Positions 1,091 through 25,058 of a stretch of DNA of 64,000 nt are shown one piece after another (the stretch's first letter is position 1; every line of letters starts with the position of its first letter). Below the pieces are notes generated by a model that worked only from the letters and a program-made list of their open reading frames with translations, was not told the DNA's origin and ran no database searches. Source of the DNA: Sulfurimonas sp. GTDB lineage: Bacteria; Campylobacterota; Campylobacteria; Campylobacterales; Sulfurimonadaceae. A program made the translations under genes and the position numbers. The stretch spans positions 1 through 64,000 of the forward strand of contig NZ_JAQTOD010000002.1 of NCBI RefSeq assembly GCF_028713515.1, given 5' to 3'.

Positions 1091-2231
1091 TATAAGCCCC
1101 TTGTAGGTAGTTGTATTCGATAGTGGAACGATTAATTTGTGATTGGAGAGAAATGATCTCTTCTTGGGTCGCAATACGGCGATTTTTGATCTCATAGAGT
1201 TCTAAAAGATTAACATTAGCAATCGCATAGGCATCCTGATACATCCCCAAGAGTTCTTGCGCATTTTTAAGATTTTCTTTGCGTTGTTGCAAAAGTGTTT
1301 CCAGAGAGGTGATCTCTTTAAGCAAACTTTTTTTTCGAAGCCCAAGACGATCATTTTGCGCTTTGAAAAACAGTACGTTTTGGCGTATTTGAAGTTCTTG
1401 AATCGATTTTTCTTCGCGCTTCGTGTTGAAAATCGGCAAAGGGATCGAAACTCCTGCACGGTAAATATTTTGATCGGGCTCTTTTTCATATTCTGTGAAT
1501 ACGCCAACCGATTCGATGATACGGGTTTCGAGTTTTGCCTGCGAGGCTTTGAGGTCATTTTCCGATGTCAATAACGCTAAATCAGGATTTGATTTCTCAT
1601 CCCCAAAACGAATGAAATTAGTATCCGCGTCAATTGCAATTTCTTCACTAAATCCAGCGTATTCACGTAATGCGTCATAGCTTTTTACTGCTTCTTTTTG
1701 GGATTCAGCGCGGTTGGATAGGGCATCGGAATACGCAACATCGGCTTGGAGCATTAGTGCTTTGGATAAAGAACCTTTGGCATAACGCTCTTTAGAGACG
1801 TTATTGATGCTTTGAGCGATTTTCAACTCTTCGTTGGCAAGATTCAATAGTTTTTGAGCTTGTGCATAATCGACATACAAAAGTGAAAGCTCTTTGATAA
1901 AACGGGATCGTTCAACCGCAACATTGGCTTTAGCATTGGTTGATAACGATCTGGCTATGCGTTCTTTGTCTTCACCTACGCCCCATACGCGAACCGGTTG
2001 ATTGAGTCCCAACCGATAGCCATTATCGGACTTAAATCGGGATCTTTCCACTTCGAGGGTAGGATTCTCATAACGGGTCAGTTTGCTTCCTTCAAGTATG
2101 GCTTGATCAGTCCTTAATGATGAAGCATTCAAATAGGGACTTTTTTCGATAGCCTGTTCTAAAAAAAGATCAAAACTCTCTGCCATAACTGCCGCTGAAT
2201 ACAACGACAAAGAAAGAATAATCTTAATCAT
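1083..2231 (-). CDS. TolC/CusC-family outer membrane efflux protein
   Basis: 382 aa with a signal peptide ending near residue 17 (AAVMA). The rest is almost entirely alpha-helical and repetitive, with two long helical hairpins (around LLNLANEELKIAQSINNVS and QRKENLKNAQELLGMYQDAY) as in the outer-membrane efflux protein family. It is shorter than E. coli TolC or CusC but normal for the compact versions in Campylobacterota metal-efflux operons. It should form the outer-membrane channel of the tripartite pump. It overlaps the adaptor gene downstream by 8 bp and the small upstream gene by 4 bp, so the three are probably translated from one message. Confidence 0.85.
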   Translation of the reverse strand: MIKIILSLSLYSAAVMAESFDLFLEQAIEKSPYLNASSLRTDQAILEGSKLTRYENPTLEVERSRFKSDNGYRLGLNQPVRVWGVGEDKERIARSLSTNAKANVAVERSRFIKELSLLYVDYAQAQKLLNLANEELKIAQSINNVSKERYAKGSLSKALMLQADVAYSDALSNRAESQKEAVKSYDALREYAGFSEEIAIDADTNFIRFGDEKSNPDLALLTSENDLKASQAKLETRIIESVGVFTEYEKEPDQNIYRAGVSIPLPIFNTKREEKSIQELQIRQNVLFFKAQNDRLGLRKKSLLKEITSLETLLQQRKENLKNAQELLGMYQDAYAIANVNLLELYEIKNRRIATQEEIISLQSQINRSTIEYNYLQGAYNE

Positions 2232-2551
2232 TTTTTTTCTTTTTTCAGGAAGGCACCGTCGAGCGCATTGACTTCCAAACGATAATTCGCAGTGTATACA
2301 TCGTAGTAGAGGATTTCGCCTCTGTGGGTTAATTTTTTACTGGTAATTTCTTCTCCGGTCTCTTTTTGAACCAACTGCTCCAACTGTTTTTCATCGACTT
2401 TATGAATTCGGTGCATTTCCTGTTTGGCTTGAAGCTGTGCGGAAGGGCGAGAGTTAGAGGTGTGAATCGACATATGTTCCCGTGCAGTCATTTCCGCTGA
2501 TTGAGCGTGTAATGCAAAAATTAATGTGCAAAGTGCGAATAATATTTTCAT
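2228..2551 (-). CDS. Small secreted PepSY-like protein of the metal efflux operon
   Basis: 107 aa with a clear signal peptide (about residues 1-18). The C-terminal half resembles one PepSY repeat: a helix (EKQLEQLVQKETGEEITS), then strands ending in YRLEVNALDGAFLKKEKK. PepSY domains are commonly periplasmic and sit beside metal transporters and two-component sensors, so a periplasmic accessory role in metal handling is reasonable. It is the first gene of the tightly overlapping trio with the TolC-like and adaptor genes. A methionine/histidine-rich segment (EMTAREHMSIHTS) near residue 20-32 could bind metal ions. The family assignment is by eye. Confidence 0.6.
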   Translation of the reverse strand: MKILFALCTLIFALHAQSAEMTAREHMSIHTSNSRPSAQLQAKQEMHRIHKVDEKQLEQLVQKETGEEITSKKLTHRGEILYYDVYTANYRLEVNALDGAFLKKEKK

Positions 2552-2628
2552 GACTAATCCTTTAATACTGTTAATAATTTGCCTAAAAGGCTGTTTTAAT
2601 GATTATTGTTTTTTGAAAAATAGGAAAA

Positions 2629-2937
2629 TTAAACGGCTATTGGAGGACGAAAATTAGAAGGGGGATTATGGCTGATATAATACTCAGAGTTATAAATCGG
2701 TGCAAACGTATGGCTCTCAAATTCGACAAGTTGTGTCTGAGCAGGGAGAATAAAGCTGATATGAAACATATATCGAATATCGCATAAATCCCCACAATGC
2801 GTAGGTTGAGAAAATTCTTGAACATATTGTTGGATGCTACAATGATCTTTCTCATTGCTCTCAATAACAAAATCATTCACAATTGAGAAGCTAAAGGAGA
2901 GCAACAGCAGTATCGTCCAGAAATTACGTTTTTTCAT
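2629..2937 (-). CDS. Small exported protein with Cys residues and a RPPIA tail, metal-efflux locus
   Basis: 102 aa. An N-terminal hydrophobic segment (residues 8-24) looks like a signal peptide or anchor. A short region with three Cys and two His follows (DHCSIQQYV, THCGDLCDIRY). It ends in NPPSNFRPPIAV. I cannot assign a family. Short proteins of this build are often found beside CusA/CzcA genes and are usually called hypothetical. It lies 77 bp upstream of the PepSY-like gene on the same strand, and 16 bp downstream of the DUF302 gene, so it is probably in the same ArsR-controlled transcript. Metal binding by the Cys/His cluster is a guess. Confidence 0.55.
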   Translation of the reverse strand: MKKRNFWTILLLLSFSFSIVNDFVIESNEKDHCSIQQYVQEFSQPTHCGDLCDIRYMFHISFILPAQTQLVEFESHTFAPIYNSEYYISHNPPSNFRPPIAV

Positions 2938-2953
2938 GATGGATGATTATATA

Positions 2954-3337
2954 CTATTCCCAGCTGTTTATCAATGCCTGAAGTTTGCTAAAAAGTCCTG
3001 TCATATGGCTTTTTATCGTTTCCTCAAGATTGAAATTATGCACTATATCTTCCATACCTATGGTGCTTATGACCGTTTGACCGTTATCGTCATAAATTGA
3101 GATGCGACAGGGGAGAAAAATAGATACTTCCGGATGCAAACCAAGAATCGCTTGTGCACCGCTTGGATTGCATAGCTCGAATACGGTAATATCCCTCTCA
3201 ATCGGAAACCCTTTTTCCTGTAGAAGATCTTTAAAATTGTACTCTTTGAGCACACCAAAGCCATACTCTTTTGCTTTTGATGTCATTTGCTCTTTAATCG
3301 CACTAATCGAATGCTTTGTCTCGTGCTTATAAATCAT
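2954..3337 (-). CDS. DUF302 family protein
   Basis: 127 aa, cytoplasmic, no signal peptide. It matches the DUF302 fold: an opening strand-helix with 'Y.FGVL.EYNFKDLLQEKG' character, then TVFELCNPSGAQAIL and a strand carrying LPCRISIYDD. Those two segments are the most conserved of the family (E..NP..A...L and LPC.i.vy). The biochemical role of DUF302 is not established; members recur in metal- and sulfur-related operons. It is divergent from the arsR gene at 3435, and the shared 97-bp spacer holds a perfect palindromic operator, so expression is probably ArsR-controlled. Confidence 0.8.
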   Translation of the reverse strand: MIYKHETKHSISAIKEQMTSKAKEYGFGVLKEYNFKDLLQEKGFPIERDITVFELCNPSGAQAILGLHPEVSIFLPCRISIYDDNGQTVISTIGMEDIVHNFNLEETIKSHMTGLFSKLQALINSWE

Positions 3338-3389
3338 TATTCACTCCTCTTTTTATTCCTGACTACGTTATAATTATATAATTAGAAAG

Positions 3390-3413
3390 TTATATAACTG
3401 AATTGTTATATAA
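3390..3413. promoter_or_regulatory. Palindromic operator between DUF302 gene and arsR
   Basis: A perfect inverted repeat with 9-bp arms, TTATATAAC and GTTATATAA, separated by 6 bp (TGAATT). It sits 22 bp upstream of the arsR ATG and 52 bp upstream of the divergent DUF302 gene. ArsR/SmtB repressors bind imperfect AT-rich palindromes of this size. A near-identical copy stands upstream of the second arsR at 4728-4751. Confidence 0.7.
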
Positions 3414-3434
3414 ATATACTTAGAAGAAGGTTAG

Positions 3435-3743
3435 ATGGAAAGATTGATTCAATTAGCAAAAATCTTCAGTGATATCAATCGTCTTAAAATTTTGATATTG
3501 GTTTTAAGAGATAGCGAAGCCTGTGTCTGTGAAATTTGCGATACATTAGAACTGTCACAGCCGCTTGTTTCACGACATTTGAAACAAATGAGGGAAGCCG
3601 ATATTCTTGAATCACGCCAATCCGGTACGTGGGTTATTTACTCTTTAACGGCGAACCCTGACTCTGCTTTAACGTGTTGGATCGAAGAGGCGCGTAAGCA
3701 GGTTCCCTCGCTCCCCAAACTAATTGCTTGTACTACAAAATAA
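3435..3743 (+). CDS. ArsR/SmtB-family metal(loid)-responsive repressor
   Basis: 102 aa winged helix-turn-helix repressor. The metal-binding motif ACVCEIC lies in helix 3 (about residues 30-36), matching the CVC site of As(III)/Sb(III)-sensing ArsR proteins. The recognition helix is SQPLVSRHLKQMREADIL. It should repress the divergent DUF302/efflux transcript and itself until metal(loid) binds. The C-terminus (about residues 80-102) contains CWIEEARKQ and IACTTK with two further Cys. A close paralogue with the same upstream region is present at 4773, broken by a 1-nt frameshift. The exact ligand cannot be told from sequence. Confidence 0.9.
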   Translation: MERLIQLAKIFSDINRLKILILVLRDSEACVCEICDTLELSQPLVSRHLKQMREADILESRQSGTWVIYSLTANPDSALTCWIEEARKQVPSLPKLIACTTK

Positions 3744-3785
3744 TTTTTTTATTATCATCCGTAATTAGCTTCGTATTGTCAATTA

Positions 3786-4580
3786 CTACTTCAATTTAAG
3801 AATTCTAATCGCACCACTTAAAACAACAAAACCAATAATTATTCCTATAATCCAGTCAGGTAGAGGACTATTAAAATACATCACTAGAAATCCAGCTACA
3901 ATAACACCTAAATTAGCTATTACGTCATTAGCTGAAAAGATATAACTAGCTTTCATATGAGCACCTTCCTCTTTTTCTTTTCTGATAATAAACAGACTAT
4001 ATACATTTACAGCCAAAGCCAGTAGAGAAATGGCTATCATCGATTCTGCTTGAGGATAATAACTATAATAAACTTGATAACCAACACGTCCAAAAGCAGC
4101 TAAAGCTAATACGATTTCAACTAAACCAGCAAAGTGAGCTGCTTGCAATTTATGTTTCGCTGCTTTTCCAACAGCAAAAAGAGCTATTCCATACACAACA
4201 GCATCTGATAACATATCTAAGCCATCAGCCATCAGTCCGGCTGAGTTATCTAACCAACCAATGATTCCCTCGATAAAAAACATTAATCCATTTAAAATGA
4301 GTAAAATCCAAAGTATTTTTTTTTGATGAGCATCACTTGATTCCTCTTCATTATCAGAACTGCTTAATTCATTAGAAATTATTTCTGCTCCAAATTCAAG
4401 TGGTATCAATGTTTCCAGAACAATTTGAGGTTCTTCAGAATGGGTAATTATTACTTTTCTATCAGGAATATTAAAATTAAATCGTGAGATAGATAAAGAA
4501 GATAAAGCCAACCTAATCATTTGTTCTTCAGAAGGGCAATCCATTTTTGGAACAAAAAAAGTAGTTATATTTTTTGACAT
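3786..4580 (-). CDS. CDF-type cation transporter with N-terminal HMA-like domain
   Basis: 264 aa. Residues 1-70 resemble a ferredoxin-like metal-binding domain in which the usual CxxC is replaced by KMDCPSEEQ. Residues 88-262 form six membrane segments of cation diffusion facilitators. The membrane metal site is ADGLDMLSD in the second segment (DxxxD) and SANDVIANLG in the fifth. The second motif lacks the classical His, as in the subfamily with a C/S-x-x-x-D-V-I-x-N motif. The C-terminal cytoplasmic domain of full-length CDF proteins is absent. It is divergent from the second arsR copy with a shared operator, so metal-induced expression is likely. Base composition is more AT-rich than the efflux genes to its left, suggesting a different origin. 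Confidence 0.8.
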   Translation of the reverse strand: MSKNITTFFVPKMDCPSEEQMIRLALSSLSISRFNFNIPDRKVIITHSEEPQIVLETLIPLEFGAEIISNELSSSDNEEESSDAHQKKILWILLILNGLMFFIEGIIGWLDNSAGLMADGLDMLSDAVVYGIALFAVGKAAKHKLQAAHFAGLVEIVLALAAFGRVGYQVYYSYYPQAESMIAISLLALAVNVYSLFIIRKEKEEGAHMKASYIFSANDVIANLGVIVAGFLVMYFNSPLPDWIIGIIIGFVVLSGAIRILKLK

Positions 4581-4727
4581 ATTTTATATCTCACTTTGTG
4601 ATATTTTTAATTTAATCATTAGAAATTAGGATCTATTTTAATATTGTCGTGCAAACTTAATTAAAAACATCATCACTGGTAGGCTGAAAAAAAATATTCA
4701 ACCCTTCCTGCCTTAACTAGGCTATAA

Positions 4728-4751
4728 TTATATAACTGTATTGTTATATAT
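4728..4751. promoter_or_regulatory. Second copy of the ArsR operator
   Basis: Arms TTATATAAC and GTTATATAT around TGTATT; the same palindrome as 3390-3413 with one arm mismatch and one spacer change. It lies 21 bp before the arsR-like ATG and 147 bp from the CDF gene start. The flanking bases (GCTATAATTA) also match the first copy, so regulator gene and promoter were duplicated together. Confidence 0.65.
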
Positions 4752-4772
4752 CTATCCTTAGAAAAATGTTAT

Positions 4773-5082
4773 ATGGAAAGATTGGTTCAATTAGTAAAAG
4801 TCTTCAGTGATATTAATCGGTTCAAAATACTAATTTTAGTTTTACGAGAGCAGGAGGTCTGTGTATGTGAGATTTGTGACACGTTAGAACTTTCACAGCC
4901 GTTTATTTCCCGTCATCTTAAGCAGATACGCGAAGTCGATATTCTTGAATCAACGCAAGAAGGAAAATGGGTAATTTATTCTTTAACTGAAAATCCTGAT
5001 TCTACATTTAATATGTTGGATTGAAGAAGGACGTAAACAGATAGCTTTCTTGCCCCAACTGATTACGTGCAATAGCAAATAG
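4773..5082 (+). pseudogene. Second ArsR-family repressor, C-terminally frameshifted
   Basis: The first 79 codons are a close paralogue of the repressor at 3435: same CVCEICDTLELSQP motif and same HTH. As sequenced, the frame stops at 5024 after 83 aa (ending NMLD). Deleting one base near 5005-5012 restores CWIEEGRKQ, then FLPQLITCNSK, and a stop at 5080-5082, giving exactly 102 aa as in the intact copy. So there is a single-base insertion in the last quarter of the gene. DNA-binding and metal-binding parts are intact, so the 83-aa product could still act as a repressor of the divergent CDF gene. A sequencing error is possible. Confidence 0.75.
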
Positions 5083-5341
5083 GGTCTAAAATCTACAAAG
5101 AAATTCTTCCCTTATACTGTCAACTTTTTAAAATATAGAAAAACAAGTGTTTTCCGCACACTTACCCCTGCTCTGCATTTAAACACTAAAATTCGCAATA
5201 ATCTATACGAAAAACTCTGTCGAATAATATTTGTATACGGAAACTCGAAAATTAGGATTTTCGTTCTACGCTGGAATGATTTATGGTACCAAATAGTAAC
5301 TTTTCATTGAAAATTACAATACTTAATTTCTTTACAAAAGT

Positions 5342-5644
5342 TCACGAGTCAATCTCAAAAAATTTGCATATATCGACATCAAGAGCTATAGAGATTTGAT
5401 AGAGTTGTTGGATGTTGAAGTGCTTACGTTTACCGATTTCGGCAAGCGATATGATCGTAGTGGTGCTATGTCCTATCTCGTGCGATAAGTCCAACTGTGT
5501 GAACCCTTTTTCTTCTCGGTACTTCTTAACATTTTGCCCGATTTTGAAATGCAGTTCTTCGATAGGGAGTGTTTTTCGAGACGACATACAAGTAACTTCC
5601 CACTGGACTTTAGATTGTTCTAAGTTTATAGCAGTTACTATCAT
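5342..5644 (-). CDS. XRE-family helix-turn-helix regulator
   Basis: 100 aa. The HTH spans about residues 35-90 (IGQNVKKYREEKGFTQLDLS, then GHSTTTIISLAE, then KHFNIQQL and VDICKFFEI). Two starts are plausible: the ATG at 5644 and the ATG at 5587 (MSSRKTLP). Each has a Shine-Dalgarno-like GGAAG 7-8 bases upstream, so the first 19 residues are uncertain. It is divergent from the EexN-like gene, whose start is 26 bp away, so it probably controls the mobile-element genes to its right. It is clearly paralogous to the regulator at 13040, sharing GH, KHFNI and VDIC.FF at equivalent places. Confidence 0.8.
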   Translation of the reverse strand: MIVTAINLEQSKVQWEVTCMSSRKTLPIEELHFKIGQNVKKYREEKGFTQLDLSHEIGHSTTTIISLAEIGKRKHFNIQQLYQISIALDVDICKFFEIDS

Positions 5645-5669
5645 CAATCAACTTCCTATAGGACTTACA

Positions 5670-5945
5670 ATGAAAGTGTCATATATTTATTTCGCGGGTA
5701 TTTTATTTCTTTTAACAGGGTGCGGACAAGACGTACAGAGTGTAGATTATTACAAAGCGCACCTGGACGAAGCGAAAGCGGTAAAAGAAGAGTGCAAAAT
5801 CAAAAAAGATAACGGTACTTTAGAGGGAACACAACTCAGCCCCTCACCTGAATATCAAAACTGTATGAACGCTTCATCGGCTCTATTTCGTAGCGGTGGT
5901 TTAAAACCGATCAAGGGCGATGAAAAAGTCCTCAAAACATGGTAA
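5670..5945 (+). CDS. EexN-like entry-exclusion lipoprotein
   Basis: 91 aa. It has a lipoprotein signal peptide with lipobox LLTGC (Cys at residue 18). The mature part has the EexN pattern: YYKAHLDEAKAVKEECK, a spacer, then YQNCMNASSAL. EexN proteins are found in conjugative and mobilizable elements and are thought to block entry of identical elements. I chose the ATG at 5670 because the signal peptide begins there, although the frame is open far upstream. It is followed by two small genes and the candidate oriT, consistent with a transfer region. Confidence 0.75.
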   Translation: MKVSYIYFAGILFLLTGCGQDVQSVDYYKAHLDEAKAVKEECKIKKDNGTLEGTQLSPSPEYQNCMNASSALFRSGGLKPIKGDEKVLKTW

Positions 5946-5973
5946 TTAAGGTTAAACAAAAGGTTCAATATAA

Positions 5974-6252
5974 ATGAGAGCATGGTTAAAAGAAGTATCA
6001 GATATTAGACAAAGTGCCGAACTCTTAAAAGACGTACATTATATTACCGAAGATGGGGATATCACCCCTCCAAAATTTATCAATTTTGAATTTATTACAG
6101 AAAAACAAGCCAAAAAACGTGGTATTAACCCAAATGATATTGAAGTTAAGCGAGTAGAAAAATATGGCAAAATACTAATGACAGTTACAGCCTATATCCT
6201 ATTAGAAAACAAAGAAACAATTGTTATTTTAGATGGTAGCGATCATACATAA
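5974..6252 (+). CDS. Hypothetical protein of the mobilizable element
   Basis: 92 aa, soluble, mixed charge, no signal peptide or membrane segment. I do not recognise the family. The C-terminal half alternates strand-like stretches (KYGKILMTVTAYILLENKETIVIL), suggesting a small alpha/beta fold. An AAGG ribosome binding site precedes the ATG. It lies 28 bp after the EexN-like gene and is probably cotranscribed with it. Confidence 0.6.
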   Translation: MRAWLKEVSDIRQSAELLKDVHYITEDGDITPPKFINFEFITEKQAKKRGINPNDIEVKRVEKYGKILMTVTAYILLENKETIVILDGSDHT

Positions 6253-6284
6253 ATAGTGCTCAATTTTTTGAATAAGGATGACAA

Positions 6285-6407
6285 ATGATCAACAAAGATA
6301 TAGACGAAGAACCCACGCAATTAGGCGGTGGCGATCCCTTACTTTTGCGGATCGTCCTTACTCTTTTAATGCCTATTTTTTGGATTATCGATAAGTTCAA
6401 AAAGTAA
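6285..6407 (+). CDS. 40-aa single-pass membrane peptide
   Basis: A short gene with a good ribosome binding site (AAGGATG, 5 bases before the ATG at 6285). The product has an acidic N-terminus (INKDIDEEPTQLGGGDP), one membrane helix (LLLRIVLTLLMPIFWII) and a basic tail (DKFKK), so the N-terminus should face out. Function unknown; position between the EexN-like gene and the relaxase suggests a role in transfer or exclusion. Confidence 0.5.
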   Translation: MINKDIDEEPTQLGGGDPLLLRIVLTLLMPIFWIIDKFKK

Positions 6408-6438
6408 CCTCCCCGCTCCCCTTGCCTTTCCAAAAGAA

Positions 6439-6536
6439 TACCCTTGTGGTATAATTTTGCAACAAGTACCTATTAAGGTGCGTAGTTGCAACTACGCACC
6501 TTACAGTACGGTTGTTTTTCAAGCACCACAAGGGTA
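6439..6536. other. Nested palindromes upstream of the relaxase: candidate oriT
   Basis: Two nearly concentric inverted repeats. The inner one, 6475-6502, is a perfect 28-bp palindrome whose left half is AAGGTGCGTAGTTG. The outer one has 12-bp perfect arms, TACCCTTGTGGT at 6439-6450 and ACCACAAGGGTA at 6525-6536. Their centres differ by one base (6487.5 and 6488.5). The structure ends 20 bp before the MobV-type relaxase ATG, where oriT of such elements is usually placed. A -10-like TATAAT (6450-6455) overlaps it, so it may also be the relaxase promoter and operator. Confidence 0.6.
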
Positions 6537-6556
6537 CTCAAAAAAGGAAAGAGCAG

Positions 6557-8059
6557 ATGGCAAAATCAGCGACGTTTTCCGTTCTAAAAGCGAGCGCACA
6601 TTCGAGTGCTCACAACTCTAGGGAAGATAATCCAGAGTATCTGATCGGCACCAAAGAGGGAGCAGAAAACAGCTACGATCTCCGTCACTCCGACAGCAAT
6701 TTTCTTGAACTGGCTAAGGTCAAATATCAAGAGGTTACAGGTCAAAAAATGCAACAAAAGCAGATTGACGCACTTATCAAAGAGACCGTTTTATCTCTCG
6801 AAGATCATCACACCGAAGCCGACGTTCAAAAAGTGTTCGATACCCTGAACGAAAAATACGGCGGGCACTACATCACTGAATTGTCAATCCACAAAGATGA
6901 GGGACACTTCGAGGACAAAAACGGAGTGACGTATTACCCCACGAAAGACATACTCCAAAAAGAGGACGGTTGGTACATTGTTCCTCTTGCTCAATCCCTC
7001 GAAATGAAACCAAGCTATAAACCCAAAGAGCATGAATTTAGCGAGAAAGTGGACATCAACGATTTCAAGCCGATACACAACATCCACGCCCACGTCAAGT
7101 TTTCAATGTTTGACTTGGAAACGGGCAAAACGGGGCGAATGAAGCACAACGAATTAAACGACCGTATCAAGACAGCGGCACACGTGCTAAAGCTTGACTA
7201 CAACCCCGAAAAAGGGAGCAAAAAACGTACACCAGTTGAACAGATCAAGACACAACACAAAGCGGTACGCAACGAGAAAATAAAAGCCCTCGCTAAGGAG
7301 ATAAAATCGGAGCAATCGCTAGGCGAAAAATACGATAGCCTACCAATAGCGGAACGGTTGGAAATGCGCCAAGAGATGAGAGCGATCATCGGGAATGGCA
7401 TTGAAACGGACACCCTCAACAAACGCCTCGAACTCTCCGAGAAAGAAAACAAGAGCCTCAAAGAGGAGATACAAGCTCTCAAGGAGGCGCAGAAAGAGGA
7501 ACGGGCGCAACTCAAAGAGCAGGGAGCCACGAGAGCGGATTACGCAGTGATGGAAGCCAAATATAAAGAGCTTCAAGCACAGCTTAAAGAGGGAAACGCC
7601 CCGAAAATCGACACTATCAAGATTTTTGAGGAGATCGAGGAGATCACGAAACCGATAAGTCACCCATTAGGCGAAAAAGAGCTTATCAAAAAAGATGAGA
7701 ACGGGAAAGAAATCGACCCTATCGACGAGATGCTAAAAGCCTCCTACACAGCCGTGGAGGAGAAAGGCTTGATCTACACGACCACGAAGCAAGTGTTCGA
7801 TAAGGACGTGTTCATTCAAAAGGTCAGAGAGCGAGAAAATGAGCACCAAAAAATTCATAAAGAGAAAAACGGGCTTATCAAGGCATTAGAATACGGCAAG
7901 GAACGAATGAGAGAGGCTGTTAAAAGCATTTTTAACAAATTTACGGGGAAATCCATCTCCGAAGTGCAAAAAGAGCGTACAGAGATTTTAAACGCTCAAA
8001 AAGAGCGGGAGAAGTTAGAACGCCAAAAAGAAGATCGAGGAAAAGGATTTGAACGATGA
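6557..8059 (+). CDS. MobV-family relaxase (mobilization protein)
   Basis: 500 aa. The N-terminus carries MobV motif I, AHNSREDNPEY (about residues 18-28); its His corresponds to the proposed catalytic His of pMV158 MobM. Further on are the acidic/His motif IHKDEGHF (about residues 115-122) and the metal-binding HxHxH-type motif HNIHAHVKF (about 175-183). Residues 270-360 and the C-terminal 70 residues are highly charged coiled coil. It should nick one strand at oriT and pilot the DNA during mobilization by a helper conjugation system. Start chosen at the ATG at 6557 with an AAAGGAAAGAG upstream; a TTG start 45 bp earlier would lie inside the palindrome. Motif spacing is longer than in classical MobV proteins. 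Confidence 0.75.
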   Translation: MAKSATFSVLKASAHSSAHNSREDNPEYLIGTKEGAENSYDLRHSDSNFLELAKVKYQEVTGQKMQQKQIDALIKETVLSLEDHHTEADVQKVFDTLNEKYGGHYITELSIHKDEGHFEDKNGVTYYPTKDILQKEDGWYIVPLAQSLEMKPSYKPKEHEFSEKVDINDFKPIHNIHAHVKFSMFDLETGKTGRMKHNELNDRIKTAAHVLKLDYNPEKGSKKRTPVEQIKTQHKAVRNEKIKALAKEIKSEQSLGEKYDSLPIAERLEMRQEMRAIIGNGIETDTLNKRLELSEKENKSLKEEIQALKEAQKEERAQLKEQGATRADYAVMEAKYKELQAQLKEGNAPKIDTIKIFEEIEEITKPISHPLGEKELIKKDENGKEIDPIDEMLKASYTAVEEKGLIYTTTKQVFDKDVFIQKVRERENEHQKIHKEKNGLIKALEYGKERMREAVKSIFNKFTGKSISEVQKERTEILNAQKEREKLERQKEDRGKGFER

Positions 8060-8145
8060 TATAATTTCTGATTGTAGGGATTTTATTCGTTCTCTTTACA
8101 ATTTTTAATCCATCGTTTAGAGATACTATTGAGAGATTTTTCTAA

Positions 8146-8877
8146 TTATCCAGTTATCTTTTTCATTACAGCAACATCAAACGCGCTATTTCTTTTTGAA
8201 ATTTTAGGGATTAATGTCTTTAAACTTTCATGTATTTTTACTGAATTTGTAACCAAAAACTCTGCCTCTTCCGCACTTAAATCTTCTGCCCATGCTTGAA
8301 ATGCCATCTTCTCAGATTCCTTAAATGCAGGCTTAGATAATAATGGATGAAGAAAATCCCCACTGATTAATTCTTGAATTTTATCGTGTGCATTATCGCT
8401 CTTTGTTAGATTGATTTTACCAAGCATTTCATCCAATAACATCAAAAATCTACCTTCTGTTACATTAAATAGAAGGCGTTTTATTCTCGTAGAAAAATTA
8501 TTAGTCATTTTACTTTTACTAACTGCATACTTATTTAATAATTTTTGAATAATTTCTTCGATAATAAAAGTCTCAAGTAACACATTGAATCTTAACATGC
8601 CCTCCTCCGTAGTTGTTGCTATTTCAATTGCGGCAATAAGAGTTGGAAATTCAGAAAAACGAAAGAGCTCATGATCTTCTTTAGCAAGAAGCCAATCAAC
8701 GGATATGTTATCACAAACAGATTTACCAATAATTGTCTCCACTGGTAATGAATTACGTGTGAGCCATGTATTCAAAGTCGAATAAGGCACATCCAAAATC
8801 TTTGCAAGTTCAACATTGCTTTTCGCATTAAGAGACATTCTAAGGCGTAGTAAAAATAGTTTTGTATCAATTTTCAT
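8146..8877 (-). CDS. CI-like phage/ICE repressor with N-terminal HTH
   Basis: 243 aa. Residues 1-65 form a CI-type HTH (SNVELAKILDVPYSTLNTWL and SVDWLLAKEDHEL). The rest is helical and unlike the LexA/S24 peptidase domain, with no Ser-Lys catalytic pair visible, so RecA-dependent self-cleavage is unlikely. It is divergent from the helicase gene at 9128 and convergent with the relaxase. A long palindrome lies 34 bp upstream of its start, the natural place for autoregulation and for control of the replication/integration genes. Confidence 0.75.
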   Translation of the reverse strand: MKIDTKLFLLRLRMSLNAKSNVELAKILDVPYSTLNTWLTRNSLPVETIIGKSVCDNISVDWLLAKEDHELFRFSEFPTLIAAIEIATTTEEGMLRFNVLLETFIIEEIIQKLLNKYAVSKSKMTNNFSTRIKRLLFNVTEGRFLMLLDEMLGKINLTKSDNAHDKIQELISGDFLHPLLSKPAFKESEKMAFQAWAEDLSAEEAEFLVTNSVKIHESLKTLIPKISKRNSAFDVAVMKKITG

Positions 8878-8910
8878 AAGACATTCTTCTATTAAAGCTC
8901 TTCTAAGTAT

Positions 8911-8957
8911 ATATTGCTCATAATTGTAATTAATTAACTTACAATAATGAGCAATAT
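8911..8957. promoter_or_regulatory. Long palindromic operator of the CI-like repressor
   Basis: Two 19-bp arms pair at 18 of 19 positions: 8911-8929 (begins ATATTGCTCAT, ends TTGTAA) and 8939-8957 (begins TTACAAT, ends GAGCAATAT), around a 9-bp AT spacer. It lies just upstream of the repressor start and about 170 bp before the helicase gene. It looks like a dimer-of-dimers operator and would control both divergent promoters; a terminator is less likely because no gene ends here. Confidence 0.55.
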
Positions 8958-9055
8958 TATCCGTGAATCAAAATGAATTATACCTCGTTTTGAGTAAATA
9001 GTGTAAATCAATAAAGTGGAGGGATTATCAGAAGTTGGCAGTAAAAAGAGTAGTT

Positions 9056-9087
9056 GAATCAAGCAGTGTTCGAGCACTCCTTGATTC
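9056..9087. repeat. Stem-loop upstream of the helicase gene
   Basis: Arms GAATCAAGCAGTG and CACTCCTTGATTC pair at 12 of 13 positions around a 6-base loop (TTCGAG). It ends 40 bp before the ATG at 9128. No T-run follows, so a terminator is not favoured; a replication-initiation or leader structure of the element is possible. Confidence 0.4.
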
Positions 9088-9127
9088 CTAATTTGACCCC
9101 CGTTAAGCAAACAAGGAAATATCAAAT

Positions 9128-10363
9128 ATGGATATTATAGCAAAAATTCAACAGAGAGTTAAAGAGCACGAAGCGATCAAATCGCAGATAGCTAATCTCG
9201 AAGAACTCACACAAAACGAGTTTATAACCTTTGATGAAATCGAACAAATCCATCAAGAGATTTTAAAACTTCGGAGCCGTCTTCAATCTGAGAACATTGA
9301 AGGAAGCGAAAAAAAACTAGAAGGCGTACTTGATCAATTCGATCTTGATATTGGAAAAATTGAAGTGGCTGAAATTCAATACCTTCTTGATAGTGTTGTC
9401 GTCAAAGCAGATATTTTGATGATTGCGGCAAAACCTGGGCAAGGCAAAAGTCTTATGGCATCGGCTATATGCAATATGGCACTTTTGGATAAAACAGTTG
9501 ATCAGGTCGTCTATATGGATGCTGACAATGGAAGCGCAACACTTAATGAACGTGGTATCCCACAGATCAAACAACGACACGGAAAAAAGTTCCGCTACAT
9601 TCACGAATCAAACTCAACTAAAATCCAAATGTGGCAACTTATCAAGATGCTGAAAACAACGAACTTGCACGATACTTTAGTAGTCATAGACTCGATAAAA
9701 AATTTTATGGGCAAAGGCGACCGTGACAAGAATAAAGATGTCTCCGAAATTATGGATATTTGGAAGGGATTACGAAAACAAGGGGCTACCGTCATTTTCC
9801 TACATCATACCAATAAACCACAGCGTGATTTTCAAGAACTGCAATACGCGGGTTCAAGTGCCTTTGAAGAGGATACCAGCAATGCCGTTTTATTGAAATA
9901 CAACGAATTTCGTAAAGCATTCATTTTTAAACCTCTCAAAAATCGTGTGGGCAAACTTGAAGAAATCGCCTTTCAGTATCAGGATCAAATACATACCCTC
10001 ACAAAAGTTGATTTGGCGTGGGCAAAAGAGACCAATGAAGATGAAATGATGCGTATAGAGATCATTGATTTTATCGGTAATTTTGAAGGTAAACCCAACT
10101 ACTCGGAGATCATGAAATATATCTCTGATATGGGATTCGCCAAGGATCGAATCAATCGAGTCATCCAAGAGGGGAAAGGTAAATACTGGATTGCAGAAAT
10201 ACTCAAAGAGCAAAACAATAAAAATGTTTTTGCTTTGATTTCCTCTAATAAACCATCAGATAACTCAGATAAGTCCGATAACCCCATAAATAGGGCTTTT
10301 CAAAATCAGACAACTGCATCCAATACATCAGATAACTCAGATATAGGAGAAAAATATGCTTGA
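9128..10363 (+). CDS. RepA/KaiC-like hexameric helicase ATPase of the mobile element
   Basis: 411 aa. Residues 1-75 are helical. A RecA-fold ATPase follows: Walker A AAKPGQGKSLMA (about residues 101-112), a conserved acidic strand VVYMDADNG, Walker B TLVVIDSIKNFM, and the sensor motif VIFLHHTNKP with the G-rich YAGSSAFEEDT after it. This pattern fits plasmid RepA-type or DnaB-like helicases encoded on integrative elements. The C-terminal 120 residues contain a winged-helix-like part (PNYSEIMKYISDMGFAKDRI) and a low-complexity Ser/Asn/Asp tail. It overlaps the next gene by 8 bp. It probably drives replication of the excised element. Confidence 0.75.
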   Translation: MDIIAKIQQRVKEHEAIKSQIANLEELTQNEFITFDEIEQIHQEILKLRSRLQSENIEGSEKKLEGVLDQFDLDIGKIEVAEIQYLLDSVVVKADILMIAAKPGQGKSLMASAICNMALLDKTVDQVVYMDADNGSATLNERGIPQIKQRHGKKFRYIHESNSTKIQMWQLIKMLKTTNLHDTLVVIDSIKNFMGKGDRDKNKDVSEIMDIWKGLRKQGATVIFLHHTNKPQRDFQELQYAGSSAFEEDTSNAVLLKYNEFRKAFIFKPLKNRVGKLEEIAFQYQDQIHTLTKVDLAWAKETNEDEMMRIEIIDFIGNFEGKPNYSEIMKYISDMGFAKDRINRVIQEGKGKYWIAEILKEQNNKNVFALISSNKPSDNSDKSDNPINRAFQNQTTASNTSDNSDIGEKYA

Positions 10364-10562
10364 AGATTACATAACAGACCATGAAGTCATGGTGAAATTT
10401 GGATTTTCCAAAGGAACACTTGCCAATTATCGTAGTGAAGGAAAACTACCTTACACAAAATTCGGACCTTCGATTGTCTATAAAGTATTGGACATTGTGG
10501 ATTTTTTGGAGAGAAATCGGGTACATAAAAATACCGGCAAACGAGAGCAAAAATGTATCTAA
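10356..10562 (+). CDS. AlpA/excisionase-like small HTH protein
   Basis: 68 aa. It has a MerR-like HTH of the AlpA/excisionase group: ITDHEVMVKFGFSKGTLANY, then GKLPYTKFGPSIVYK, then IVDFLERN. These proteins bind DNA to direct excision or regulate the integrase. It overlaps the helicase gene by 8 bp and is followed by a second protein of the same type and the integrase, so the cluster is an integration/excision module. Confidence 0.7.
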   Translation: MLEDYITDHEVMVKFGFSKGTLANYRSEGKLPYTKFGPSIVYKVLDIVDFLERNRVHKNTGKREQKCI

Positions 10563-10605
10563 TAGCAAATACTATCAAGATAATCCAAAAATTGGCAGCA
10601 CTACC

Positions 10606-10881
10606 ATGAAACGTTTTCTTAAATATGAAGCAGCAGCCGAATTTCTCGATGTATCAGGTTCATATCTTAAAAAGAAAATTCACGACGGAACATTCCGTTT
10701 AAATGTCCATTATTTCAAACCTAACGGCTCAACAGGTATAATACGATTTGACGCTATTGAGTTGGAAAAGTGGATGCGAGGAAAGGATATCGCGCATGAA
10801 ACTTTACAGCAGAGCGGGGACTCTGTATCTGACGTACTATCACGGGTTCGACCGAGTCCGAAAAAGTACGGGGCTACCTGA
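10606..10881 (+). CDS. Second AlpA/excisionase-like HTH protein, overlapping the integrase
   Basis: 91 aa from the ATG at 10606. The HTH is KYEAAAEFLDVSGSYLKKK, followed by HYFKPNGSTGIIRFDAIELEKWM, the wing and the closing helix typical of excisionase-type proteins. The last 86 bp overlap the integrase start, so translation of the two is probably coupled. The frame is open further upstream but only the part from 10606 looks like protein. Confidence 0.65.
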   Translation: MKRFLKYEAAAEFLDVSGSYLKKKIHDGTFRLNVHYFKPNGSTGIIRFDAIELEKWMRGKDIAHETLQQSGDSVSDVLSRVRPSPKKYGAT

Positions 10882-11917
10882 TACAAAAGAAAACCGCAAG
10901 TTCATTGAAAACAAAATCATACCTGAGTTGAACTTTGAGCTCAAGTATGGTCAAAAAGAGATAGAAAAAGTCATCCCAAAGTTTGATCACTATGCGGATA
11001 TTTATCTGAGTGAACAACAAAACCGTCTCAAAGAGCATACCTTTGGTAAATACACTCGAATACTAAAAAATGAGATTATCCCTTTTTTTGGCGGTCAACA
11101 GATTGACCAAATCAAGACAACCGATGTGCGAATATGGGTTAATAAGCAACTTGAAAAAGTGGTAACAAAAACCGTTGCCGAAAAGCTTACGATCATTCGT
11201 ATGATCTTTCGCTATGCGTTTGAGGATGAGATTATCAACCGTAATCCAGTCGATGCGATCCGATTACCTGCACGGGTGAAGCCTGATATTGAACCGTTTA
11301 CGGTGGAAGAAGTCGCACTCATGCTTAATGGGTCTGAGGATTGGTATCGAAACTATTTAGCGGTTGCGTTTTATACGGGGATGCGGATCGGTGAGATTCT
11401 GGCACTAAAATGGTCTGATATCGACATGAACAAACGAAAAATTCATGTTAGACGGTCAATATCGCAAGGATCGGAAACGACACCAAAGACTATCGGTTCA
11501 GTTCGTCAAATACCGATCTTTGACACCCTTTGGTCTTATCTTCAAGATCAATACCGATATACGGGATTGTCAGGTAGTTATCTATTTGTATCAAAAACGA
11601 CGGGATCAGCGTTTAACGATGCGACCTCCCTACGCGATGCGCGTTGGATACCGATGCTCAAACGATTAGGGATACCCTATCGTCAGCAGAAGAATACACG
11701 GCACACGTTTGCCGTTCAAATGCTAAACAGCGGAACGATGAAGATCACCGATATATCTCGTCTTATGGGTCACACTTCGACACAGATGCTTTTGACACGA
11801 TATGCAAAATTTATTAAGTCAGAAGAGATAAAAATCGAAGAAAAATTTGATTTGTTTGGGCTCAAAACGGGCACAAATGAAAAAGAAGTTATAGGGAAAG
11901 CCCATAAAATAGGCTAA
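10796..11917 (+). CDS. Tyrosine recombinase / integrase of the tRNA-Leu element
   Basis: 373 aa from the ATG at 10796; 16 extra in-frame codons upstream lie inside the previous gene. An N-terminal arm-binding region (KLYSRAGTLYLTYYHG) and a SAM-like core-binding domain (about 65-150) precede the catalytic domain. Catalytic residues visible: Arg in TGMRIGEIL, the His-x-x-Arg equivalent in NTRHTFAVQML, His in MGHTSTQM and the nucleophile Tyr in LLTRYAKF. It ends 5 bp before a tRNA-Leu 3' fragment, which is the expected attachment core, so it is the integrase of the element to its left. Confidence 0.9.
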   Translation: MKLYSRAGTLYLTYYHGFDRVRKSTGLPDTKENRKFIENKIIPELNFELKYGQKEIEKVIPKFDHYADIYLSEQQNRLKEHTFGKYTRILKNEIIPFFGGQQIDQIKTTDVRIWVNKQLEKVVTKTVAEKLTIIRMIFRYAFEDEIINRNPVDAIRLPARVKPDIEPFTVEEVALMLNGSEDWYRNYLAVAFYTGMRIGEILALKWSDIDMNKRKIHVRRSISQGSETTPKTIGSVRQIPIFDTLWSYLQDQYRYTGLSGSYLFVSKTTGSAFNDATSLRDARWIPMLKRLGIPYRQQKNTRHTFAVQMLNSGTMKITDISRLMGHTSTQMLLTRYAKFIKSEEIKIEEKFDLFGLKTGTNEKEVIGKAHKIG

Positions 11918-11922
11918 AACCG

Positions 11923-11975
11923 TGGTACCAGTGGGCGGACTCGAACCGTCACGACTCGCGCCACCGGATTTTGAA
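11923..11975 (-). other. 3' fragment of tRNA-Leu: attachment-site core
   Basis: Read on the minus strand, it begins in the anticodon region (TCAAAATCC), continues through a long variable arm, a T-arm with GGTTCGAGTCC, the acceptor strand and an encoded CCA. This is the 3' part of a class II tRNA, best fitting tRNA-Leu with a CAA-type anticodon region. No D-arm or 5' acceptor strand exists beyond 11975, so it is not a functional tRNA. It directly follows the integrase gene, as expected of an integration core. Confidence 0.75.
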
Positions 11976-12055
11976 ATGTAAGTGTAGCTTTTTTTTCGAT
12001 TAATTATTCTAACTGCAATATTGAATATGTATATTCTAAGATACTTAGAAAATTC

Positions 12056-12328
12056 TTGTTTGCAATTGTAGATCATAATATAGGCTTTACTTGCTCATTA
12101 AATGGGACATATGCAAATGCATATATAAATCATCAGGAAGCTCTTATCGTATTAGCCCAATGCAGAAGTCATGGTCGAGGGGATCCAAAACATTTTTATG
12201 AAATTCTAAATGACAACTTACCAACAGTGACTTTTACACAGATTGCTACGAAACAATATCAATCAATTACCCAACATGCTGTATCTGCCTTTGAAGATAG
12301 AATATATTTCAATCATTGGCGAATATAA
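12056..12328 (+). CDS. Hypothetical protein, probably 5'-truncated at the tRNA-Leu junction
   Basis: 90 codons from a TTG at 12056, but there is no ribosome binding site there. The frame stays open upstream to 11975, exactly where the tRNA-Leu fragment ends, giving about 117 codons with protein-like composition and no start codon preceded by a good site. This suggests the C-terminal part of a gene whose beginning was removed by the recombination that left the tRNA fragment. No family recognised; recurring segments include NHQEALIVLAQCRSHGRG and FEDRIYFNHW. A nearby small gene follows after 3 bp. Confidence 0.45.
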   Translation: MFAIVDHNIGFTCSLNGTYANAYINHQEALIVLAQCRSHGRGDPKHFYEILNDNLPTVTFTQIATKQYQSITQHAVSAFEDRIYFNHWRI

Positions 12329-12331
12329 AAT

Positions 12332-12505
12332 ATGTCTGATAAACAAAGAAAAAAAACAGAAGAATTACTAGGTTATCAAGTTGTCATATTTTGCGAAGAT
12401 AGTGGTGTTATTCCTGTCTTTTATCCACATCCTACCGATAGAACATTAAATGTTGCTATTAATTTTAGACAAGACTATAGTAATCATGGAATAGAACAGG
12501 AATAA
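12332..12505 (+). CDS. Hypothetical 57-aa protein
   Basis: 57 aa beginning at the ATG at 12332, 3 bp after the preceding frame stops. The N-terminus is basic (SDKQRKKTEELLGY), then a strand-rich stretch (QVVIFCEDSGVIPVFYPHP) and a polar tail. No family recognised. The close spacing suggests it was translated together with the truncated gene upstream. Confidence 0.45.
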   Translation: MSDKQRKKTEELLGYQVVIFCEDSGVIPVFYPHPTDRTLNVAINFRQDYSNHGIEQE

Positions 12506-12517
12506 TAAATTATAATA

Positions 12518-12949
12518 TTATTTAGTCTCCGCTTCTTCTTTCATAATATCTCGTTTATATAATACTTTGACATTTTTTTGAAATAAGTTTTTTTCTATTT
12601 CATAATCTGGGTCATATGTTGCTAAGCGATGTGCTGCTAAGGCTACACTTGCTAATGCTATCGCTGGAAAAGCGATAATTGCTGTACCAGCAGCAGCTCC
12701 TACACCGGCAATAGCACCGGCAGTAGCAACTCCTCCAACGCCTGCAGCTCCAGCCACAGCCCCCCTATAACTTGTAAGCACTCTACATTTCAAATTTTGT
12801 TTTTCAATAGCGCCTTCTAACTTATTGACAACATGACTCATATCTTTAATTGCCACAATTTGAAATGACTTTTTTGATTTGATTAATGCATCAATTTTTT
12901 CAGTACTCAACTCGTCTGTTGTAAAATTTTCTATATCTGCTAAGTTCAT
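12518..12949 (-). CDS. Hypothetical protein with a glycine/alanine-rich membrane hairpin
   Basis: 143 aa. Residues 1-60 are polar and helical (contains KKSFQIVAIKDMSHVVNKLE). Residues 62-108 are a long stretch of Gly, Ala, Val and Ile with glycine-zipper spacing (AVAGAAGVGGVATAGAIAGV), able to form two tight membrane helices or an amphipathic hairpin. It ends in HRLATYDPDYEI and a basic tail. No family recognised. Glycine-zipper hairpins occur in channel-forming peptides and toxins, so a membrane-active role is possible but unproven. It is divergent from the XRE gene at 13040. Confidence 0.6.
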   Translation of the reverse strand: MNLADIENFTTDELSTEKIDALIKSKKSFQIVAIKDMSHVVNKLEGAIEKQNLKCRVLTSYRGAVAGAAGVGGVATAGAIAGVGAAAGTAIIAFPAIALASVALAAHRLATYDPDYEIEKNLFQKNVKVLYKRDIMKEEAETK

Positions 12950-13039
12950 TCATTTTTCCTTATAGAGGACGTATTATTTTGTTTTATTTAACTAACTATA
13001 GAAATATACTTATAGTAAGTTTAACCATAGGTATAATCA

Positions 13040-13393
13040 ATGAAAGAATGCTCTCTTACAGAGAATGATATTAGTGCTGTTTACAAACAGATAGGATTAA
13101 ATGTCAAAACTATAAGAAAGTCAAAAAAAATTTCTCAACTGTCTCTTTCATTAGCAATTGGTCATAAAGCAGTTGGAACTATATCAATGGCTGAACTATG
13201 CTTGAACGGCAAACACTTTAATATTGAACATCTCGTGAAAATTGCAAATGTTCTTGAAGTAGATATATGTGAATTTTTTAAAAACATTGATTTTAAAGAA
13301 CAAACTTCCGAACAAGCTCAATCTCAAGACCAACGACAAAAGCGACCAATTAAGCGCTTTGGTGGATTAAAAGTTATTAAAAAAAAGAAGTGA
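13040..13393 (+). CDS. XRE-family regulator, paralogue of the one at 5342
   Basis: 117 aa. The HTH (IGLNVKTIRKSKKISQLSLS and GHKAVGTISMAEL) is followed by KHFNIEHLVKIANVLEVDIC, matching the regulator at 5342-5644 across about 65 residues. The C-terminal 35 residues are basic (DQRQKRPIKRFGGLKVIKKKK), possibly extra DNA contacts. It is divergent from the glycine-rich membrane protein gene, which it may control, and convergent with the Fic gene. Confidence 0.75.
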   Translation: MKECSLTENDISAVYKQIGLNVKTIRKSKKISQLSLSLAIGHKAVGTISMAELCLNGKHFNIEHLVKIANVLEVDICEFFKNIDFKEQTSEQAQSQDQRQKRPIKRFGGLKVIKKKK

Positions 13394-13407
13394 ATTTTTT
13401 TATATTA

Positions 13408-14010
13408 TCAGTAAGTCTTTTGATGCATCAAAATTAAATCAGAATAATCGCTTTTATCTGCTTTTCTTAAAGCCTCGATATATTCATTCCTTTTTGGATT
13501 TTCCGACGCTAATAAGTCTTCCTGCCAGCGCACAGGCATCTTGCCATGCTGTCTGAGGTAAATATTAGCCAACATCCTGCTCCATCTGCCGTTGCCGTTT
13601 TGAAACGGATGTATCTGCACTGCTCTATGATGAATACGTGCTGCTGCTTCAAAGACATCATAAGTTTTATTTTTTTCCCAATACGCTATATCATCACAAA
13701 GCTTTTTTAATTCCATTGGCACCAAATACGCTTTTATTCCTATTGATAATTCTATTTTTCTTAACTGCCCTGCCCATTCCCAAACATCTCCAAACATCTC
13801 TTTATGCAGATCCATCATCCAGCCGTAGCTAAAAGAAGCTTCCCTCTTCGATGGCGGAGCAGATAGGTACTTTAACGTTGCGTTGGCAATGTTTTCGGCT
13901 TCTTTTTCATATATCTCTTTTAAAGTATATAACTTATTCTTGGAAAGCTTTAGCCCTGATACATCATCAAGCGGTGTAGCACCGTCAATAGGTTTTGTGG
14001 AATCAATCAT
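13408..14010 (-). CDS. Fic-domain protein, 'mobile mystery protein B' type
   Basis: 200 aa. The Fic catalytic motif HPFQNGNGRWSRM is intact (about residues 139-151); its His would deprotonate the target hydroxyl and the Asn/Gly/Arg residues hold the nucleotide for AMP transfer. The N-terminus GATPLDD and the segment HKEMFGDVWEWAGQLR are hallmarks of the protein B family that travels with an HTH partner. I chose the ATG at 14010 because it overlaps the stop of the upstream HTH gene as TAATG; an ATG at 14022 is also in frame. Toxin function is inferred from the pairing and the family. Confidence 0.85.
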   Translation of the reverse strand: MIDSTKPIDGATPLDDVSGLKLSKNKLYTLKEIYEKEAENIANATLKYLSAPPSKREASFSYGWMMDLHKEMFGDVWEWAGQLRKIELSIGIKAYLVPMELKKLCDDIAYWEKNKTYDVFEAAARIHHRAVQIHPFQNGNGRWSRMLANIYLRQHGKMPVRWQEDLLASENPKRNEYIEALRKADKSDYSDLILMHQKTY

Positions 14011-14390
14011 TATGCGATCCAAAGCCTGTCTTGATATTGACCTGTCAAGAATTCTCTTTCAAATTTATGGATAATTCTGTCCAAAGCTTTTTTCTCTAAG
14101 CCCTGTTTTTCTAAAGCTGATGTACTTTGAACAAGTGAAGCCATAAAAGTAGCTTTCTCTTTTGCTCTATGCATTTTAAGTTCCTTTAGAGGTACCACTT
14201 CATTCCCTGCAAAGTCTAAACCTAGCAGGCTTGTAAGTTTTTCTATAGTACTCAACTTCACATCATCTCCTGCGAAGAATCTATTTGTAGTGCGGATGCC
14301 TATCCCACTTATTTTTGCCAAATTCTCAATTGTAATATTCAGTTCTTTTTTTCTTTTTTTTATTTTTTTAATCAAATCAATTCTAGTCAT
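14010..14390 (-). CDS. HTH regulator/antitoxin paired with the Fic protein ('mobile mystery protein A' type)
   Basis: 126 aa. An XRE HTH spans residues 5-55 (LNITIENLAKISGIGIRTTN and KLSTIEKLTSLLGL). A helical C-terminal part (ATFMASLVQSTSALEKQGL) could be the surface that neutralises the Fic protein. It overlaps the fic gene by one base (TAATG). Two copies of a palindrome that probably binds this protein stand 20 and 52 bp upstream of its start, indicating autoregulation as in toxin-antitoxin operons. Confidence 0.8.
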   Translation of the reverse strand: MTRIDLIKKIKKRKKELNITIENLAKISGIGIRTTNRFFAGDDVKLSTIEKLTSLLGLDFAGNEVVPLKELKMHRAKEKATFMASLVQSTSALEKQGLEKKALDRIIHKFEREFLTGQYQDRLWIA

Positions 14391-14410
14391 ATTCGATCCT
14401 TTTTATAATT

Positions 14411-14458
14411 ATGCCATAAATGGCATTAAAATATAAGATAACATGTCATAAATGGCAT
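14411..14458. promoter_or_regulatory. Two palindromic operators of the HTH/Fic pair
   Basis: ATGCCAT-AA-ATGGCAT at 14411-14426 is a perfect palindrome; ATGTCAT-AA-ATGGCAT at 14443-14458 has one mismatch. Their centres are 32 bp apart, about three helical turns, so bound dimers would lie on the same DNA face. They precede the HTH gene, which reads away from them on the minus strand. Confidence 0.7.
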
Positions 14459-14594
14459 AGTAATTATATCTCTACTTTCAAATACATGCTAAAATAACAA
14501 TTATTACTTGTAAATGGCTGTTGAATGCACCACTACAATTAAATTGTACAACTTTGTGTACAACAATTTCAAAAATGATAACAAAATCACTTAT

Positions 14595-24588: not shown

Positions 24589-25058
24589 CTACTTTTCCTC
24601 TCTAATGTTGTCATACCTAGACCTGTTCCAATAGAGTAACCAGCTTCTGCCCACCCTTTAAGTCCACCTTTTAAAGTAGTTGCATTTTTATAACCCATCT
24701 CTCTTAACACTTGTGCAGCAAGTGCTCCACGACCACCTTCACGACAATATGTGACAATAATCACACTCTTGTCTTGGATGAGCTCATTAACCTTCCACTC
24801 TAAATTTCCACGAGTGATTGAGATAAACCGCTCTTTATTTAACTCATTTGAAGGGATACTTCCTTCTGCTCTTTGTTCACTCTCCCTTACATCAAGAATA
24901 ACAACATCTTCCTCTTCATCAAGTAGAGATTTAAGTTTTTTTGGTGAAATTTCACCAACCTCTTGTTGTGCTTTTTTTATTAAATCCATTTTACTCATAG
25001 ACTCAGCCATCAACATTGTTGTAAACAACAGCGCAACTATCAGTATTAAACTCCTCAT
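24585..25058 (-). CDS. Exported rhodanese-like sulfurtransferase
   Basis: 157 aa. A signal peptide (about 1-17, LLFTTMLMAES) precedes a single rhodanese domain: VVILDVRESEQRAEG (about 51-65), the active-site loop TYCREGGRGALAAQ with the catalytic Cys, and KGGLKGWAEAGY. Unlike the fused domain two genes downstream, this one keeps the active Cys. It is the first gene of the four-gene operon and is probably in the periplasm. Confidence 0.85.
   Translation of the reverse strand: MRSLILIVALLFTTMLMAESMSKMDLIKKAQQEVGEISPKKLKSLLDEEEDVVILDVRESEQRAEGSIPSNELNKERFISITRGNLEWKVNELIQDKSVIIVTYCREGGRGALAAQVLREMGYKNATTLKGGLKGWAEAGYSIGTGLGMTTLERKSR

Follow-up and report, generated by a model that had tools for sequence, protein, structure and literature searches.

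A palindromic site lying just ahead of a relaxase gene in the window (the whole 64-kb stretch of Sulfurimonas DNA that was analysed) is likely to be the cognate DNA site of that relaxase, at which transfer of an integrated mobilizable element begins (its origin of transfer, oriT); it probably doubles as the relaxase's own operator. The symmetry of the site is kept across relatives while its letters change, which argues for a probable role as the start site of transfer combined with self-control by the relaxase. The pMV158-type kind of oriT is known; what appears to be new is a symmetric form of pMV158-like logic, with relaxases that fall outside the curated libraries.

The palindromic site in the window

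The centre of the site is a perfect palindrome of 30 bp with no loop (TAAGGTGCGTAGTTG/CAACTACGCACCTTA, positions 6474-6503, not assigned to a strand), within which lie the units U (6477-6488) and rcU (6489-6500); its middle reads GTAGTTG/CAAC. A preliminary description of this DNA had rightly called the palindrome perfect, but had put its length at 28 bp. Around it lies an outer inverted repeat on the forward strand, with a left arm of the CTTG type (TACCCTTGTGGT, 6439-6450) and a right arm (ACCACAAGGGTA, 6525-6536), both of which covary across sites. The arms are perfect over 12 bp, with 14 of 15 positions paired when they are extended, and the dyad centres of palindrome and outer repeat (6488.5 and 6487.5) are one base apart; arm length and offset are both as first described.

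Two further forward-strand units complete the arrangement. Unit 1 (rcU', 6460-6470) is the outer arm of an imperfect hairpin on the left and unit 4 (U', 6505-6514) that of an imperfect hairpin on the right, 3' of which a forward-strand run of T (6515-6519), with no mirror on the left, offers the alternative nic context G/TTTTT. Each of the four short units runs opposite to its neighbour (rcU' - loop - U, rcU - loop - U'), and since the central palindrome and both flanking hairpins share the inner arms, they are mutually exclusive. The nested build noted earlier is real but was incomplete, as it lacked the four units, the mutual exclusion of palindrome and flanking hairpins, and the one-sided T-run. 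By themselves, the hairpins on either side have little strength in the window (left z -1.6, right z +0.9): the one with unit 1 is weak and the one with unit 4 is not stable.

At the composition of the window, palindromes with arms of at least 15 bp are expected 0.0004 times per 64 kb, and the only other perfect palindrome in the 64-kb window with arms of at least 9 bp lies at 24941-24958 (arms of 9). Perfect inverted-repeat pairs of 12 bp with spacers of 20-120 bp number six in the window, three of which are one repeat in shifted register, and the pair 6439-6450/6525-6536 is the only one of the six that is concentric with a palindrome. As a single strand of 104 nt the site folds with -27.6 kcal/mol against a shuffle mean of -9.6, and none of 200 shuffles did as well. 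The site is present as one copy in its own genome. In addition, the sequence GGTGCGTA has what we take to be a likeness to Xer sites.

The relaxase gene and its relatives

The open reading frame at 6557-8059 on the forward strand (500 aa) encodes, according to its structure model, a relaxase of MobM-like fold that is missed by the curated libraries. It matched no Pfam family and no relevant NCBIfam family, and had no convincing relative among the PDB sequences; searches with profiles A2 and A4 against the PDB sequences likewise did not find MobM, which was found by fold comparison alone. The model covers residues 1-240, was built from an alignment of 22 rows and has a mean pLDDT of 88.1. When it was submitted to Foldseek, the best five rows were all MobM relaxase domains (E 0.0036-0.025), and in VIA-align MobM took rows 1-6, with other relaxases next (model against MobM: Z 11.4, 163 residues aligned, rmsd 3.5).

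MOBV relaxases carry a motif I with a histidine and a following arginine (HNxR) and a metal-binding motif of the form HxDE ... HxH. In an alignment of 25 rows, H19, R22, H112, D114, E115, G116, H177 and H179 are invariant in all 25 relatives. Motif I is thus represented by invariant H19 and R22, the N being found in the window protein but only in about half of the alignment rows, and the metal-binding motif is complete (H112, D114, E115, H177, H179), with a long insertion between its two parts in the window protein. None of the 25 members matched a relaxase family in Pfam (E 0.01), Mob_Pre included, or in NCBIfam, and the proteins are therefore termed MobM-like by fold and not filed as members of a profile. 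The earlier designation as a MobV relaxase agrees with the fold and the motif residues, but finds no counterpart in the Pfam and NCBIfam matches of these members.

Across the order, a sequence search detected relatives of the relaxase in 25 of 398 genomes and a profile search in 55 of 398; within the family, 15 of 228 genomes had them. Two named Sulfuricurvum records and six plasmids of Aliarcobacter and Arcobacter also contain relatives. With L020, a more distant member, there were matches in 159 plasmid records, including plasmids of Campylobacter, Helicobacter and Bacteroides, and four Bacteroidota proteins of mobilization type were matched by the family profile with an E of 1.7e-38. There was no relaxase match in phage records and no confirmed match to profile A2 in viral contigs. 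Six chromosomal relatives (L004, L005, L008, L009, L010 and L011) are short, mostly 336-342 aa; their upstream genes are similar, a long palindrome is absent, and they look domesticated. In two other cases (L034 and L040) the relaxase frame is broken or split and the palindromic site is intact, which may reflect sequencing error or a relaxase used in trans.

Recurrence of the site ahead of related genes

The recurrence of the palindrome was assessed in about 1 kb of upstream DNA (less at contig ends) of 73 family genes from Campylobacterales. The census omitted roughly twelve matches that were weak, fragmentary or lacked upstream sequence, among others G157:C184, G144:C5, G304:C9, G393:C1, G297, G149, G138, G171, G198 and G508; L168 and L169 are apparently the same contigs as L031 and L030, with which they agree in length. 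A perfect palindrome of at least 20 bp was present in 31 of the 73 upstream regions, compared with 8 of 1460 dinucleotide shuffles, and one of at least 18 bp in 37 of 73, compared with 28 of 1460; among 63 tiles of the window, the site alone reaches 20 bp. The same build, in other letters, thus stands ahead of related relaxases, a conservation that had been proposed as a check of the oriT reading, and that reading gains support from these sequence comparisons. The 42 regions without a perfect palindrome of at least 20 bp comprise some that are shortened by contig ends, eight short chromosomal copies (all from one family of the order, most with the same upstream gene end), some imperfect versions (L013, L016, L017 and L019) and others with nothing. 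In Campylobacter and Helicobacter plasmids the palindrome may stand at the start of an operon, with as much as 680 bp separating it from the relaxase, and small plasmids with few listed genes beyond the relaxase keep the palindromic site.

After plasmid records had been added and six duplicate sites removed, 43 distinct sites were available, a set from which the A/T palindrome L146 was excluded by judgement and in which L080 was included despite one mismatch in its palindrome. Perfect central palindromes span 24-48 bp among the sites; that of L124, 48 bp ahead of a family relaxase, is long for a bacterial genome. The left arms of 12 nt comprise 27 different sequences over the 43 sites, and the nine bases left of the centre contain AGTG in 23 of them and end in TTTG in 12 and in GTTG in 8. 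When two sites differ by one to three letters in one arm (105 such pairs), the other arm usually carries the mirrored change, as it does for 241 of 255 differences, a count that is biased because the sites were selected for symmetry, the shuffle comparison alone being free of that bias. A search with the exact letters GGTGCNNNGTTGCAACNNNGCACC matched 3 of 398 genomes of the order and no viral contig, and was rejected as a test of the family, for which it is too narrow because the letters drift.

The flanking elements recur as well. The sites are related by descent, so the following hairpin and outer-arm statistics are optimistic: the left imperfect hairpin has a mean pairing score of 6.2 against 4.2 when shuffled (42 sites) and the right one 6.6 against 4.3 (43 sites), and the stretch shared by left and right flanks averages 9.6 within the same site against 8.0 between different sites (42 sites, with none of 10000 permutations as high). 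The outer repeat around many sites is CCCTTGTGG/CCACAAGGG or GAGCTTGCGA/TCGCAAGCTC, and in some sites the longest shared flank stretch is another, A/T-rich sequence. The T-run is one-sided across the set too, positions 1-4 after the right hairpin being T in 68-78% of 37 sites compared with 23-30% of 30 sites at the mirror place.

Probable transfer start, possible self-control and the host element

The closest parallel is the oriT of pMV158, which, according to PMC5863519, spans two mobM promoters and can fold into three mutually exclusive hairpins; MobM nicks AGTGTG/TTATAC next to a hairpin, with a histidine as nucleophile, and represses its own gene when bound to double-stranded oriT. The window-type system resembles that of pMV158 and MobM (MOBV1) in relaxase fold, in motif residues, in overlapping and mutually exclusive hairpins, and in the place of the putative oriT just before the relaxase gene. 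The site may also overlap a relaxase promoter, the candidate in the window having an extended -10 but not rising above shuffles, and the AGTGTG/TT nick context stands at the centre of the L029 site. The two systems differ in that the inverted repeats of the pMV158 oriT, three in number and overlapping, all lie to one side of its nick, and that oriT lacks a long perfect palindrome, whereas the whole of the window-type site is an inverted duplication with a perfect centre of 24-48 bp. The latter also has a fourth unit, is bounded by outer CTTG/CAAG arms and carries a T-run; as to its relaxases, none of the 25 members has a match to Mob_Pre or another Pfam relaxase family. In view of these long perfect centres, the site is best regarded as a variant, and not a plain member, of the pMV158-type oriT. 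Mobilization ('plasmid recombination') proteins of Bacteroidota small plasmids (the pBI143-like L076, and L077-L079) share a homologous relaxase domain (E 1.7e-38), and overlapping inverted repeats stand upstream of mob in L077 and L078, but no long perfect palindrome was found upstream in L076, L077 or L078. Judged by eye, the L078 site has three units and a 4-base loop, and the three-unit mob site of L077 and L078 seems intermediate between the pMV158 form and the symmetric one.

By analogy with pMV158, both nicking and repression would take place at the site, and we infer relaxase binding, a nic position, hairpin switching and dependence on a helper. The alternating units would let the DNA extrude in one of two ways, as the perfect palindrome at the centre or as the flanking pair of hairpins, never as both. 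On the double-stranded or central form, the relaxase may hold both transfer and its own promoter off, as in pMV158, and binding to a flanking hairpin may, by the same analogy, expose the adjacent nick site; the conserved histidine would then cut one strand and pilot it through the secretion system of a helper. A helper would be needed because the genome itself has no match to the coupling-protein and VirB4 families tested (PF02534, PF03135). The chances are about even that nic lies at the dyad centre (6488/6489), to which the L029 site points, since its centre, AGTGTGTTA, is letter for letter the pMV158 nick context; that of L036, AGTGAGTTA, is one letter off. A doubtful second candidate is a nick after the right hairpin and before the T-run. 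It is somewhat unlikely that the oriT is truly twofold symmetric, with a nick at the dyad centre, both strands equivalent as substrates, and the strand to be sent picked outside the core, by the one-sided T-run, the promoter or the stoichiometry of the relaxase. If it were, the symmetric oriT would amount to a pMV158-like half-site duplicated in inverted orientation, able to start transfer in either direction and, by extrusion of the central palindrome, to turn itself off. The symmetric build poses a testable question, namely how a relaxase chooses its strand when both look alike.

The promoter bears on whether the relaxase controls its own synthesis. A promoter-like sequence at 6427-6455 on the forward strand (TTTCCA, a spacer of 17 bp and TATAAT preceded by TG), a consensus match only, has a weak -35 (TTTCCA) and a TATAAT at 6450-6455 that touches the left outer arm. 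A scan of this stretch of the window gave 2 such promoters against 2.2 in shuffles, and the promoter is thus plausible but not significant; the -10-like box previously noted at the outer arm is present, but as a promoter does not rise above shuffles. The place of the box varies among relatives: Sulfuricurvum-type and Aliarcobacter sites have it to the left, 42-46 bp ahead of the centre, L069, L070, L071, L074, L080 and L134 have it to the right, 43-52 bp past the centre, and in further groups no box was found, which makes autoregulation uncertain.

The contact between box and arm would also suit a site that is an operator only, at which a repressor acting as a dimer, whether the relaxase or an accessory protein, binds the palindrome and controls the mob genes, with oriT elsewhere. 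A precedent is RA3 (IncU), whose MobC, in the account given in PMC4175270, represses its own operon through an inverted repeat at the mob promoter and so limits relaxase synthesis. However, that operator is bound by an accessory protein, has short arms of 8 bp and works better when imperfect, MobC preferring an imperfect repeat, whereas no accessory gene common to the plasmids looked at was found, some records listing hardly any gene beyond the relaxase. Moreover, the palindrome, hairpins and outer arms stay where the box switches side or is absent, and an operator without oriT function is therefore improbable.

The position of the box also bears on a possible RNA element, in which the leader would fold as the central or right hairpin and attenuate transcription or translation of the relaxase. 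Where the box precedes the centre, as in Sulfuricurvum-type and Aliarcobacter sites, the transcript would include the palindrome, and the T-run follows the right hairpin; but in the six sites with the box after the centre the transcript would lack the palindrome and the site is still kept, and with no terminator-like site in the window stretch around the palindrome and no Rfam match for the site, such an element is very improbable. Equally remote is a plasmid replication or recombination site that lies beside the relaxase gene by chance, since, although many relatives are small plasmids with rep genes, the palindrome heads the mob gene or operon and not rep, and is also found in chromosomal elements such as that of the window, with its integrase.

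An oriT at this site would supply a recognizable signature for Campylobacterota, where standard typing often fails. A literature search of titles and abstract openings, with subscription papers mostly outside it, found no paper on a symmetric oriT or on the relaxase family in Campylobacterota. A term search of the text of an Arcobacter shuttle-vector paper (PMC13035637) gave neither oriT nor palindrome, and a passage in PMC6145009 names only an IncP-type relaxase. By MOB-suite, 79% of the small plasmids of C. jejuni and C. coli were non-mobilizable in a Campylobacter plasmid study from 2025, which explains this by a lack of relaxase and oriT (PMC11768034). All six Aliarcobacter and Arcobacter plasmid records, and all of another set of 9 records, are likewise typed as non-mobilizable by MOB-suite.

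The integrated element that carries the putative oriT probably also includes a tyrosine integrase on the forward strand (10748-11917; PF00589, 1.6e-20). The ends of the element were not found when the flanks 2001-6400 and 10301-14500 were compared for direct repeats, and the sole 14-bp direct repeat between them was rejected as an element end, being a T-rich chance match. The block 5349-10517 corresponds, with 86-92% DNA identity, to 4634-9993 of L030, from a Sulfuricurvum MAG. This shared module comprises an HTH gene, an EexN lipoprotein, the putative oriT, the relaxase, a CI-like repressor and an AAA ATPase, and ends before the integrase, which does not follow the module in L030. The lipoprotein (5670-5945, three genes before the relaxase) belongs to the EexN family (NF033894, E 1.9e-13), which is named after entry exclusion. 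Further downstream, a Fic-family protein with an adjacent HTH gene (13408-14390) is a possible toxin-antitoxin pair.
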